Shown here piece by piece: positions 40,566 to 45,994 of a DNA stretch of 45,994 nt (within the stretch, counting starts at the first letter, position 1; every line of letters begins with the position of its first letter). Below the pieces are notes generated by a model. That model worked only from the letters and a program-made list of their open reading frames with translations. It was not told where the DNA came from and did no database searches. The translations under genes were made by a program, and so were the position numbers. The DNA is from Bacteroidales bacterium (GTDB lineage Bacteria > Bacteroidota > Bacteroidia > Bacteroidales > JAFGXI01), in NCBI GenBank assembly GCA_027064025.1, contig JAMOQL010000147.1, forward strand, positions 1-45,994. The letters run 5' to 3'.

Positions 40566-42524
40566 TTATTTTTGGCGTTCATTCTTCTTCAATTGCATAA
40601 TCGTATGCGTTCCCTCTACCTTTATATCTATTAGTTTCTGTTCTTCTAGTAAGCCAACTAAAATAGGAATCATTTTTTTAGTACATGTTGTTAATTGACG
40701 AAATTCACTAAGATTTATCCCCTGAATCTTTTGCTCAAGCTCTTTCTTTGTTACCAACTTTACTTTTTCAAAAATATCAACATGAATATAATTATCTTGA
40801 AACTTTATTAACCGTTGTTGATCCATCAGGTATTTCAGAAACATTTTAAATTCATCTTTAGAAACTTTCCTTTCTCTTGCTTCAATTTCAATATCCTTAA
40901 TAACTGGTAATTGAAGCTGATAATCAAAATATTTTTTTTCTAACCAGCCTATTTTTTGTTTCAAATCATCATCCAAAACTATTTTATGACTAGTTTTAGA
41001 CCATGTACTGCCGACTTTCTTTAAGGTTCCTTCCGAAAGCATTTCTAAGAGTAAGAACTCTATAAACTTTTTGCCCAATTGATTCTTCGAAAAATTAAAC
41101 TTCCCTGAAAAGAAATTAGTACTAATTCCGTCTTCAAGCAAATAGTATTTCCGATGATAAGCTTCTAATTCACTATTAATTTCATTCTTATAAAACTGTT
41201 TATCGCTTGTTAAAATAAGTACAGATTCGCCCGAAATTGAAAATACATGAACATTTTCAGAAGATTCTACCACCTCTCTAATATCAGATTCTGTATTATT
41301 AATTTTATCGATTAAATCTTTTAAATAAATAGGTAAGTGATCTTTCCCTAATTCAAATTCTATTTGTTCTATTAATTTATTTCCTAAAAGAATTTGTTGG
41401 TTAATTCTCTCTAATTGATGAATTAATCTTTCTGTTCTTTTCTTATGATGAAGAGGCAGAACATCAATAATTAATCCGCCACCAATAGTCCGATCTGCCG
41501 ATGATTTACGAATAATAAATTTATCTTTATTCAAAAGTACCGCAGATTTTTCTAAGTGAATCTGAACAATTGCATCTTCGCCTTTCTTTATGGCATCTTT
41601 ATTTAGAAGATGAACTTTCGCCAAACTCTCAAATGTTCCAGAATAAAAAATAACTGTAGACCATATTTTAAGTTCTGTTTTTTCATCGAAAACTGTCAAA
41701 TTAGCATCTATCAAATTGGTAGATTCTAAAACTTTATTAGTCAATACAGAACCTTTTTGTAAGTTCTCTTTCTTAATCCCCGACAGATTCATAGCGGCTC
41801 TATCTCCTGCAAAAGCCACATCCACGGAATTCCCATGCCTTTGGATACTCTTAATTTTGTATTTATCCTTAACATTTGGCAATAAATAAATTTGTTCACC
41901 AAGTTTAGCCTGCCCCGACAAAACCGACCCTGTAACTATCGACCCCAAACCTTTAATAGTAAACAATCTATCAACAAACATCCTAAAAACAGGGCCTACA
42001 GTTTTAGGCTTTACAGTTAAACTTTGCTTTTCTATCTCTGATATTAAGTCTTTAATACCCTCTTTAGATACTGCAGAAACAGATATAATAGAAGGCTGAT
42101 TGAGATTTTGTTGAACAAATAATTCTTTTATTTCATCCGAAGCCAATTCTAAAATATCGGCATCTACCAAATCTGATTTATTTAGCGCCACTATTATTTT
42201 ATCAATACCTAAAGTTCGAATAATATTAAGATGTTCTAAAGTTTGAGGCATTATTCCGCTATCGGCTGCAATTACTAACAAAGCAATATCGATACTTCCC
42301 ACTCCAGAAATCATGGTATTGATAAAATCCTTATGACCTGGGACATCTATAATTCCTAAAGAGTTGCCTGAAGGTAAATCTAAATGTGAGAAACCTAAAT
42401 TAATGGTTATTCCTCGTTCTTTTTCCTCTTTATGCGTATCACAATCTATATCAGTTAAGGCTTTTATTAAACTTGTTTTTCCATGGTCAACATGACCTGC
42501 CGTTCCTAATATTATGTGTTTCAT
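40566..42524 (-). CDS. selB: Selenocysteine-specific elongation factor SelB
   Basis: 652 aa, typical. It delivers Sec-tRNA(Sec) to ribosomes at UGA codons that carry a SECIS hairpin. GTPase motifs: GTAGHVDHGKT (7-17), KEEKERGITINLGFSHLDL, DVPGHKDF, NKSD and SAVSKEG. EF-Tu-like domains II-III follow (FRMFVDRLFTIKGLGSIVTGSV) and a SelB-specific domain with FIIRKSSADRTIGGGLIIDV. The C-terminal about 250 residues are the winged-helix domains that bind the SECIS, including FRQLTTCTKKMIPILVGLLEEQKLI near the end. The ATG overlaps the selA stop (ATGA). Confidence 0.97.
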   Translation of the reverse strand: MKHIILGTAGHVDHGKTSLIKALTDIDCDTHKEEKERGITINLGFSHLDLPSGNSLGIIDVPGHKDFINTMISGVGSIDIALLVIAADSGIMPQTLEHLNIIRTLGIDKIIVALNKSDLVDADILELASDEIKELFVQQNLNQPSIISVSAVSKEGIKDLISEIEKQSLTVKPKTVGPVFRMFVDRLFTIKGLGSIVTGSVLSGQAKLGEQIYLLPNVKDKYKIKSIQRHGNSVDVAFAGDRAAMNLSGIKKENLQKGSVLTNKVLESTNLIDANLTVFDEKTELKIWSTVIFYSGTFESLAKVHLLNKDAIKKGEDAIVQIHLEKSAVLLNKDKFIIRKSSADRTIGGGLIIDVLPLHHKKRTERLIHQLERINQQILLGNKLIEQIEFELGKDHLPIYLKDLIDKINNTESDIREVVESSENVHVFSISGESVLILTSDKQFYKNEINSELEAYHRKYYLLEDGISTNFFSGKFNFSKNQLGKKFIEFLLLEMLSEGTLKKVGSTWSKTSHKIVLDDDLKQKIGWLEKKYFDYQLQLPVIKDIEIEARERKVSKDEFKMFLKYLMDQQRLIKFQDNYIHVDIFEKVKLVTKKELEQKIQGINLSEFRQLTTCTKKMIPILVGLLEEQKLIDIKVEGTHTIMQLKKNERQK

Positions 42525-43921
42525 TGTTGAATTATTTTTGCAAGTTCTGAGCCAATTATTTCCATTTCATTTTCGTCTACAGTAAGAATATCGAAATAAA
42601 TATTCGCACTTTTCAGAATACTTAATATAGGAATCTCTTGATCTAATAATTGATGATAAATACGTTCTGCAATTTTTGACCGCTTTTGATTGTTCTCGTC
42701 AATGCGTAATTTTACTGCATAACTTTTAAGTTCTTTATCGGGCAAAGTTCCGCCTCCAAATTGACCAATACTATCGACAATAGTACAGTCAATTTTCTCA
42801 GCCACTAACATCGATTGTAATTTTTTAGCTTTAACTTTTAATACCTCATCGGACTGTCTTAACGTTTTAAAGAAAATATTATTTTCAAATAATTTATCTT
42901 CGTTCAAATAATTACGAGCAGCACTTTCTAAAAGCGTAAGGGTCGCTTTCCCAACTCTCAAAGCCCTCATCATTGGCTCCTTTTTTATTTGAGAAACATA
43001 TTCTTTTTTACCTACAATAATTCCAGCTTGCGGTCCTCCTAAAAGTTTATCACCACTAAAGCAAAGTAAATCGACTCCTGAAGCAAGGGCTTGTTTAACG
43101 TCTGGTTCCTCGTCTAATGCTGGGTGATTAATTCTTTTTAATAAGCCCGAACCAATATCAAAAACTACGGGAATATGATTCTTTTTCCCTAATGCACTTA
43201 AATCCTCTAAAGATACCTCAGCCGTAAAGCCTTTGATAGAGTAATTTGACTTATGTGTTTTTAAAAGAATCGCTGTATTTTCGTTTATTACTTTTTCGTA
43301 ATCGGATAATTTAGTTTTATTAGTTGTCCCAACCTCGACCATTTTACAATCAGAAGCCTCAATAATATCTGGGACACGAAAGGCTCCACCTATCTCAATC
43401 AACTCTCCTCTCGAAACCACGACTTCTTTCTCTTTCGACAAAGTTCGTAAAATCAACATTACTGCTGCTGCGTTATTATTAACAACCACAACATCTTCTG
43501 CCCCAGTCAGATATTTTAATATTTCTGAAACATGAGAGTCGCGATGTCCTCGACTTCCCTTCTTCAAATCAAATTCAAGGTTATTATATTTCTCGATATT
43601 GTGTAGAGCATCGTCTATCAATTGATGACCAAAAGGAGCACGACCTAAATTAGTGTGAATAATGATTCCAGAAGAATTAACAACTCTTTTTAAATTAGCT
43701 CTAGAGATATTATTGAGTTCTTTTTTTATTTCTTTAATAATAACAGAAAGATCCGGACAAACTTTACCTTTTTTTATCTCCTTTCTAATTCCATCTATTA
43801 CTTTTTGTGCACAGAAAACTACTAACGCATGATTATTTTCAAGCATTTCTAATTTTATATCTTTGTGATTGAGTAATTTATCTACCGCAGGTATTTTTTG
43901 AAACTCTAAAGATTGAGGCAT
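42521..43921 (-). CDS. selA: L-seryl-tRNA(Sec) selenium transferase SelA
   Basis: 466 aa, normal length. PLP enzyme that converts Ser-tRNA(Sec) to Sec-tRNA(Sec) with selenophosphate. Key parts: VVNSSGIIIHTNLGRAP (80-96), RGHRDSHVSEILKYLTGAEDVVVVNNNAAAV, RGELIEIGGAFRVPDII and the PLP lysine in FSGDKLLGGPQAG (Lys292, equivalent to Lys295 of E. coli). It lies 31 nt downstream of tRNA-Sec and overlaps selB by 4 nt, so all three are one operon. Its own stop codon is UGA, showing that UGA still terminates in this organism. selD is not in the window. Confidence 0.97.
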   Translation of the reverse strand: MPQSLEFQKIPAVDKLLNHKDIKLEMLENNHALVVFCAQKVIDGIRKEIKKGKVCPDLSVIIKEIKKELNNISRANLKRVVNSSGIIIHTNLGRAPFGHQLIDDALHNIEKYNNLEFDLKKGSRGHRDSHVSEILKYLTGAEDVVVVNNNAAAVMLILRTLSKEKEVVVSRGELIEIGGAFRVPDIIEASDCKMVEVGTTNKTKLSDYEKVINENTAILLKTHKSNYSIKGFTAEVSLEDLSALGKKNHIPVVFDIGSGLLKRINHPALDEEPDVKQALASGVDLLCFSGDKLLGGPQAGIIVGKKEYVSQIKKEPMMRALRVGKATLTLLESAARNYLNEDKLFENNIFFKTLRQSDEVLKVKAKKLQSMLVAEKIDCTIVDSIGQFGGGTLPDKELKSYAVKLRIDENNQKRSKIAERIYHQLLDQEIPILSILKSANIYFDILTVDENEMEIIGSELAKIIQQ

Positions 43922-43952
43922 ATTTTGTAAATTAAGTTTTCTCTGAGAATTG

Positions 43953-44044
43953 CAGAGAGGGCAGGGATCGAACCTGCCACAGCCAGTTTTATCTGTCTGC
44001 TACTGGTTTTGAAGACCAGCTGAAACACCAGTTTCGTCCTCTCT
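43953..44044 (-). tRNA. selC: tRNA-Sec (TCA)
   Basis: 92 nt on the minus strand without encoded CCA. Acceptor AGAGAGG pairs with CCTCTCT with discriminator G. The anticodon stem CTGGT/ACCAG closes the loop CTTCAAA, giving anticodon TCA. The D arm GAAAC-TGGT-GTTTC has a short 4-nt loop, a long variable arm CAGACAG/CTGGCTG (one mismatch) is present, and the T arm is GCAGG-TTCGATC-CCTGC. Short D loop, long variable arm and UCA anticodon together identify selenocysteine tRNA. I pair seven acceptor bases clearly; the eighth pair typical of bacterial tRNA-Sec is not obvious, so ends may shift by one base. Confidence 0.97.
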
Positions 44045-44330: not shown

Positions 44331-45994
44331 ATGAGAAACTTATTACTTTTTATTGCTTTAGCAATATCGGGAAATCTATTGTCACAAACCCCTTCAGGAG
44401 CCATGCCTATGGACTCAATTAACGGAATGACTATTCCAACTTGTAACGGATTATTTTCTGATAGCGGTGGACATTTTACACATTGTTGAGGCCAACCTCC
44501 GACGAGCGGCTACTCGTCCAACGAAGATTATACTGCAACATTTTGTTCAGATGATCCAGCAAACCCTAAAATTCAAATTTACTTTTCTAATGCTCATATC
44601 CATCCATCAGATACACTTTATATTTACGATGGTCCCGACACAAATTCACCTCTTTTAGGAGCTTTTAATAATTCAACAAACCCATCGTTATCATTATTAG
44701 CTATAGAATCAAGCATCACCAATACTTCTGGTTGTTTAACCGTAAATTTCATCTCTGGCCCAACCAATGAAAATACAGGGTGGTTAGCAGAAATCACTTG
44801 CGAACCTGTTTGTCAAGAAGTTGTTGCCCAATTAAATATGGCTCTTACATCCCCTACTCCAGATACAAACTATATTGCTATTTGCCCAGGCTCTGAAGTA
44901 AATTTCTCTGCAGACGCCATTTATCCTGAGAACGATTTTATTTATCATCAATCCGATGCTACCACGACTTTTGATTGGTATTTTGGAGATGGCTCAACAG
45001 CCACAGGTGAGAACGTTTCTCATACTTATAACACAGTCGGTGGCTATACCGTTTCATTATTTGCAACAGATGCTAATGGCTGCATAAGTAGCAATAGTAT
45101 AGAAACTAGAATTGTTATTGCGGGAAGTCCATTTACAGGTTCCACTCCCCCAGACCCAATTTGTGCAAATGACACTGCAGTTCTCGACTTTACAACGGTT
45201 AGTGGCTCAACGTCAGTAGTTGACGGAACTCCGTTTCACCAAGATATATCAACAACTTTAGGGGTATCCGATACAACCTTCTTACCCGATGGAACAGGAG
45301 ATTGTTACGAAACTTCAGTCGTATTTAATTGCTTCGACCCCGGACAAACCTTAGATGATCCTCAAGATTTTTTAAGTTTAGATGTCAACATGGAACATTC
45401 TTTCTTAGGAGATTTAGAAATCTCCATTATCTGCCCTAATAATCAGACACTTGTGCTAAAATCTTTTAACGATCTTGGAGGTGATCCTGGCTACGGAGGA
45501 GGAACTTTTATGGGAGAACCTATCGACGACGATGCAATTATGGATGCTGGTGTTGGTTACGATTACTCTTGGACTCCTATCACACCAACATACGGAACCA
45601 TGGGATTCGAAGGAGAGAATGGAATGTCGACATTAACTCAGGGTAGTTATACTCCTTTCGGATCATTCTACGATTTAGTAGGGTGTCCCCTCAACGGTCT
45701 ATGGACCATTGAGATATGTGATAACTGGAGTTCTGACAACGGCTATATTTTCTCATGGCAAATGACTCTAAATCCTGATATTGCACCTGACGCATGGGAT
45801 TACACTGTCCCGATTGATCAATATTCTTGGCAAACAGGGCCATATATTATCAACCAAACCGACGAAGCAATTTCCGTTAGCCCTCCTATTGCAGGAAACT
45901 ATCAATACACATATAATGTTATTGATCATTATGGATGCGCATGGGATACAACTATTACACAAGAAGTATTCCCAACCCCTAATGTTGACTTAGG
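44331..45994 (+). CDS. Candidate secreted selenoprotein with CUB-like, PKD and P-domain-like modules (3' end outside window)
   Basis: The frame from ATG 44331 runs to the window end (554 codons) with a single interruption, TGA at 44487-44489 (codon 53). Signal peptide MRNLLLFIALAISGNLLSQ. A CUB-like domain (about 35-165) has CNGLFSDSGG, SGYSSNEDYTATFCSD and DTLYIYDGPDTNSPLLGAF. A PKD domain (about 190-265) has WYFGDGSTATGENVSHTY, and a P-domain-like part (about 335-480) has LGDLEISIICPNNQTLVL and WTIEICDNW. The TGA follows His51-Cys52 in an apparent insertion between DSGG and TSGYSSNED. A SECIS-like hairpin lies at 44501-44518, and selC-selA-selB start divergently 287 nt away. I read codon 53 as selenocysteine. 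A nonsense mutation or sequencing error is the alternative. The C-terminus, and thus any type IX sorting signal, is not visible. Confidence 0.72.
44501..44518 (+). promoter_or_regulatory. SECIS-like hairpin after the in-frame UGA
   Basis: GACGAG-CGGCTA-CTCGTC is a perfect 6-bp stem with a 6-nt loop whose second and third bases are GG. The stem starts 11 nt after the UGA and the first loop G is 18 nt beyond the last base of the UGA. These values fit the bacterial SECIS pattern (short stem, G near the start of the loop, about 16-37 nt from UGA to the loop). A further lower helix GUUG (44485-44488) with CAAC (44519-44522) could form around an asymmetric bulge that includes the UGA region. The hairpin is inside coding sequence, as usual in bacteria. 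Confidence 0.7.

Follow-up and report, generated by a model that had tools for sequence, protein, structure and literature searches.

Prokaryotic selenoproteins were catalogued in 2026 as 119 families and subfamilies, among which there is no CUB, PKD or type IX member (PMC13188914). In several of the catalogued proteins, including KCU-star (NF033934), MbdU (NF045648), SaoB (NF040727) and others, selenocysteine (Sec) is placed at a UGA codon with a cysteine directly before it (PMC13188914). The gene described here, which comes from uncultured Bacteroidales and is referred to as Sec-CUB, has the same C-U arrangement, but differs from all of these in being of the CUB, PKD and type IX kind. The authors of deep-Sep report that almost all selenoproteins have Cys homologs, a property by which they filtered new candidates (PMC12013277).

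Our comparison of seven Sec-CUB genes shows a conserved UGA, coding sequence on both sides of it, a covarying RNA element, one origin, and an association with sel genes. We consider it very likely that the gene encodes a selenoprotein with SelB-dependent Sec at codon 53; no Sec protein or readthrough product has been shown.

The Sec-CUB gene

The window, i.e., the whole stretch of 45,994 nucleotides that was analyzed, belongs to a fragmented MAG of 304 contigs. It holds the following parts of the gene:

44331-45994, + strand: Sec-CUB gene, 5' part; 554 codons up to the contig end, remainder on contig C276
44472-44498, + strand: 9-residue insertion HFTHCUGQP; by alignment, missing from the non-Sec CUB homologs examined
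44484-44486, + strand: Cys52, adjoining Sec53; present in 7/7 orthologs, with TGT and TGC both in use
44487-44489, + strand: UGA codon 53, read as selenocysteine; same alignment column in 7/7 orthologs

From the ATG at 44331, the frame runs for 52 codons to the TGA at 44487-44489, after which no further stop interrupts it before the contig end; window position 45994 marks the contig end only, not the end of the gene. Contig C276 continues the gene with a 49-codon overlap at 100% identity, and carries the type IX sorting domain at its end. The joined gene, as inferred from this overlap, has approximately 1,185 codons. Contigs of three MAGs break within the Sec-CUB gene or at most about 350 bases from its start (window 45994; L083:9100; L084:1).

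Conservation of the in-frame UGA

Searching the family and order with read-through allowed identified the gene in five genomes, with N-termini 55-59% identical and exactly one TGA each. Scanning 85,000 species with a strict pattern returned seven sites, of which five were members already known, one was a new member (L092) and one a chance match (L094). The sixth ortholog genome, HGW-Bacteroidetes-21 (HGW-21), is known from the pattern scan only. The chance match, at L094:5671-5709, fits the Sec pattern out of frame; the surrounding gene is itself similar (32% identity) to the downstream part of the Sec-CUB protein. The strict pattern had no match in viral contigs, and searches at the class and phylum levels (approximately 790 genomes) gave no further Sec member, the top matches being without the motif.

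The six orthologs, all from other Bacteroidales MAGs, are 55-61% identical at the N-terminus and 1,103-1,338 codons long, and the orthologs are spread over at least four families (f1, f34, f50, f63). Each has exactly one in-frame stop, which is a UGA in the same column, and terminates with UAA. Since six other genomes hold a single TGA in the same aligned column, its presence is beyond chance. Differences among the Sec-CUB genes are highest at third and lowest at second codon positions on both sides of the TGA, and this excess at third positions indicates that both sides read as coding sequence. The seven members have the motif [H/N]-C-U-G-Q-P-P in common, located within the 9-residue insertion.

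Origin of the insertion

Twenty-eight other CUB homologs in the alignment, including a paralog from the same genome (L003), are without the nine-residue stretch bearing Cys-Sec, and three further homologs from the class search are without the Cys-Sec motif. No Cys-Cys was found at the Sec site in the 28 CUB homologs, even though the query carried Cys there and thus favored such forms, and no Cys form of the site was found in the approximately 1,180 genomes sampled at the order, class and phylum levels; such forms are usual among bacterial selenoproteins but not obligatory. In a tree calculated after removal of the insertion, all seven Sec members group in one clade with support 99/99. The absence of the stretch from other homologs argues that Sec arrived by insertion and not by Cys-to-Sec exchange. 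Together with the well-supported clade, it makes a single origin by insertion the simplest account, and a likely one. Because no Cys form was found, finders that rely on Cys homologs would miss a selenoprotein of this kind.

Protein architecture and cysteines

The domains identified within the window are:

44412-44810, + strand: CUB-fold domain, residues 28-160; model pLDDT 77; PDB match with Z 15.4 and rmsd 1.8 over 114 residues
44853-45101, + strand: PKD domain; PF18911, E 6e-16
45375-45464, + strand: proprotein convertase P-domain match; PF01483, E 5e-9

The domain order is signal peptide (assigned by eye), CUB fold, PKD, P-domain, SprB repeats, PKD and CHU_C. The Pfam CUB match is weak, and below cut-off for the window copy; the CUB fold is supported by Foldseek and VIA-align, with PCPE-1 as the top structure match (Z 15.4). 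TIGR04131 and CHU_C score above cut-off in the source genome (G000), G386 and G391, as does CHU_C in G038. We infer from these domains that the protein is type IX (type B) cargo at the cell surface; export and location are untested.

The N-terminal region contains six cysteines in addition to Cys52. Cys72 and Cys135 co-occur in 20 of 34 sequences and are both missing from the remaining 14, with zero exceptions, and Cys38, Cys157, Cys161 and Cys185 are invariant. As judged by this co-occurrence and invariance, the six cysteines are likely paired, suggesting three disulfides. Cys52 and Sec53 are extra to them and lie in a loop that was modelled with lower confidence (block mean 61). Since the other six cysteines appear paired, we infer that Cys52 and Sec53 probably make up an exposed site for redox chemistry or for a soft metal. 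The RNA hairpins described below do not include Cys52, which is coded by both TGT and TGC; this indicates that it is kept for the sake of the protein.

These results bear on an earlier note, made from the window sequence alone, which had proposed a new selenoprotein in the form of a secreted CUB-like/PKD protein. The core claim held, by virtue of orthologs with UGA at the aligned position, and so did the description of the protein (CUB-like fold and PKD) and of an intact frame on both sides of a single UGA (52 codons before it, open to the contig end after it); the label "adhesin-like" rests on domains only. The note expected homologs with UGA or a Cys codon at the aligned site, of which the UGA part held and the Cys form was not found. 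A sequencing error at the UGA, named there as a refuting case, is ruled out by the orthologs. As for another of its refuting cases, homologs lacking H-C-U-G, the non-Sec homologs lack the whole segment and the seven orthologs keep [H/N]-C-U-G. A frameshift, dismissed by the note, is also ruled out here, with the same frame on both sides of the UGA in all seven genes.

An RNA element at the UGA

A structured element begins at the UGA codon:

44487-44518, + strand: SECIS-like element; hairpin 1 at 44488-44499, hairpin 2 at 44501-44518; covariation; one copy per genome

The sequence at the TGA is GAGG-NCAA-CCYC, followed by the second hairpin, the stem of which varies with pairing kept (GACGAG/CTCGTC versus GCAGAG/CTCTGC). 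In a formal count over the element, 87% of cells are paired, and in hairpin 2 both partners are changed in four of the six pairs. The covariation score of 0.348 compares with at most 0.167 when the element is slid, and was reached in 0 of 500 shuffles. The covariation on hairpin 2 shows that the stem-loop directly after the UGA is under selection for pairing. In some members the hairpin register slips by one base, with the hairpin still kept. Codon +4 after the TGA is CCG in 7/7 members and codon +1 is never GGA or GGT, though these genes mostly use others; chance figures for this restriction ignore kinship. It is possible that the conservation of G-Q-P-P after Sec is partly owed to the RNA element.

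Agreement with the published bSECIS model (stem, loop, early G in the loop, energy limit -7.5) is only partial: most members fit and several depart. Two (L083 and L092) exceed the energy limit, and the predicted apical loop lacks an early G in L011, L083 and L092. The folding energy of four members is not better than that of shuffles at p 0.05 (three of them with p 0.19 to 0.73). Searched with a covariance model, each of the seven Sec-CUB genomes has one site, and four selB-positive genomes without the gene have none; as the model was built from the same seven sites, only the absence of others is informative. Rfam SECIS_1 had no match over the source genome, and none in any control genome either, which renders this search uninformative.

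Selenocysteine machinery and its linkage

In the window, Sec-CUB is divergent from an intact selC-selA-selB cluster:

43952-44044, - strand: selC, tRNA-Sec; ARAGORN tRNA-Sec(UCA), Rfam RF01852 at 58.3 bits (cut-off 47)
42521-43921, - strand: selA; NCBIfam TIGR00474 at 535.8 bits (cut-off 267.9)
40566-42524, - strand: selB; NCBIfam TIGR00475 at 304.8 bits (cut-off 242.25)

The source genome has the full selA-D set, with selD elsewhere and not at the Sec-CUB locus. This SelD (L039:1513-2502, - strand, contig C192) has an in-frame TGA of its own (U39, context G-A-G-U-G-C-K), and together with Sec-CUB it therefore brings the genome to at least two candidate selenoproteins.

Strong tRNA-Sec matches (E at or below 4.5e-10) were found in approximately 40 of 393 genomes of the order. 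They occur in 5/6 Sec-CUB genomes in the order sample versus 35/387 others (p=5e-5, kinship ignored), and the seventh Sec-CUB genome, HGW-21, has SelA and SelB. Part or more of the machinery is thus present in six of the seven Sec-CUB genomes. The exception is G038 (L082, L091; rated 95% complete), which contains Sec-CUB with the UGA and hairpin, but in which no SelA, SelB or strong tRNA-Sec match was found; missing contigs are the simplest guess, and a possible one.

In G386, selC adjoins Sec-CUB, divergent as in the window and 40 bases from a contig end, and selA and selB were not found in the bin. In G391, Sec-CUB and selC-selA-selB share a strand, with Sec-CUB upstream. G151, HGW-21 and G003 carry the sel genes on contigs other than that of Sec-CUB, so that adjacency is seen in three of the seven genomes only, and not in those three or G038 as assembled. 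Apart from the sel genes, no common partner was found among the neighbor genes. The view that this adjacency makes a functional link likely, put forward in the earlier note, held in part (three of seven genomes); we regard such a link as possible, i.e., suggestive and not general. Of the predicted homologs with UGA at the aligned position in sel-positive genomes only, the UGA was found, and nearly all genomes are sel-positive. The assumption that Sec use is rare in Bacteroidota failed for this order, where about 10% of genomes have a strong tRNA-Sec match, and Sec use in Bacteroidales may be commoner than was assumed.

Proposed mechanism and alternative explanations

We propose that SelA would make selenocysteyl-tRNA on selC, with selenophosphate supplied by SelD, and that SelB would bring it to UGA codon 53, guided by the SECIS-like double hairpin starting at the UGA. 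By means of its signal peptide and type IX (type B) sorting domain, the chain would cross both membranes and stay outside. Sec53 would then sit beside Cys52 in the 9-residue loop added to the CUB domain, where the pair may form an exposed selenenylsulfide/selenol site for cell-surface redox chemistry. This redox role is inferred and untested, and it lacks comparative support because no Cys form is known.

The closest rival keeps the same Sec protein and makes the Cys-Sec pair a surface ligand for a soft metal or metalloid (e.g., mercury, copper, arsenic), without redox turnover. Several catalogued C-U selenoproteins are linked to metals (SaoL, HgcA, MbdU; PMC13188914), but the likeness amounts to two residues, and there are no common metal-handling neighbor genes. 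A metal ligand remains possible; we favor the redox role, which we hold to be about as likely as not. A different reading takes the UGA mainly as a selenium-controlled switch, such that the full surface protein is made only with enough selenium and the residue itself is minor. The early position of the UGA (codon 53) and the adjacent selC in three genomes would suit a switch, but Cys52, which is outside the RNA element, is kept in 7/7 members with both codons, arguing that the Cys-Sec pair is selected for at the protein level and making this reading unlikely.

Ordinary readthrough of the UGA with a standard amino acid, or its reassignment in this lineage, would also account for a protein made past the UGA, as judged by conservation. 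Both are very unlikely, since no sense codon occurs at the site in 7/7 members, and there are both sel genes and a SECIS-like element. Global recoding is ruled out: TGA is the terminal stop of three of the 34 long open reading frames in the window, selA included, and the tRNA-Trp found carries the anticodon CCA. Finally, the window comes from a fragmented MAG, and the UGA could be a single-base sequencing error, or else a nonsense mutation that recently turned the gene into a pseudogene. This is all but excluded by the same TGA in seven separately assembled genomes, and by the open frame that follows it, more than 1,000 codons long in each of the six complete copies.

Comparison with known systems

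No NCBIfam selenoprotein model matched the Sec-CUB protein, and no report of CUB, PKD, type IX or gliding-motility selenoproteins was found in the literature searched, which was mostly without subscription papers. Sec-CUB is very likely an uncatalogued selenoprotein family, with a new place, a new domain and no Cys relative found; a selenoprotein as such is a known kind. On balance we lean towards a bolder reading, in which Sec-CUB represents a class of type IX-exported surface selenoproteins where Sec was gained de novo without a cysteine ancestor: a short insertion would have carried the UGA and part of the SECIS into an existing CUB domain, which would give Bacteroidales a redox or metal site, based on selenium, outside the cell.

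Animal CUB domains (cubilin, neuropilin, PCPE-1, TSG-6) have the same fold (Z about 15) and a distant sequence match (cubilin, E 3e-8), but contain neither Sec nor the insertion, and their binding roles are not transferable. The CUB-PKD-CHU_C surface proteins of Bacteroidota (T9SS type B cargo) share the domains and the secretion signal and have a homologous CUB domain (36-50% identical), but the insertion of nine residues is missing from them, as are the UGA and the RNA element. SelD of the same genome likewise has an in-frame UGA and the same sel machinery, but is a cytosolic enzyme of unrelated fold, for which Cys forms are well known. Selenium is normally used by redox enzymes inside the cell; Sec-CUB would instead place it outside Bacteroidales cells via the type IX system, and it illustrates a route to Sec by insertion and not by Cys exchange, which makes the role of an exposed Cys-Sec pair at the cell surface a testable question.
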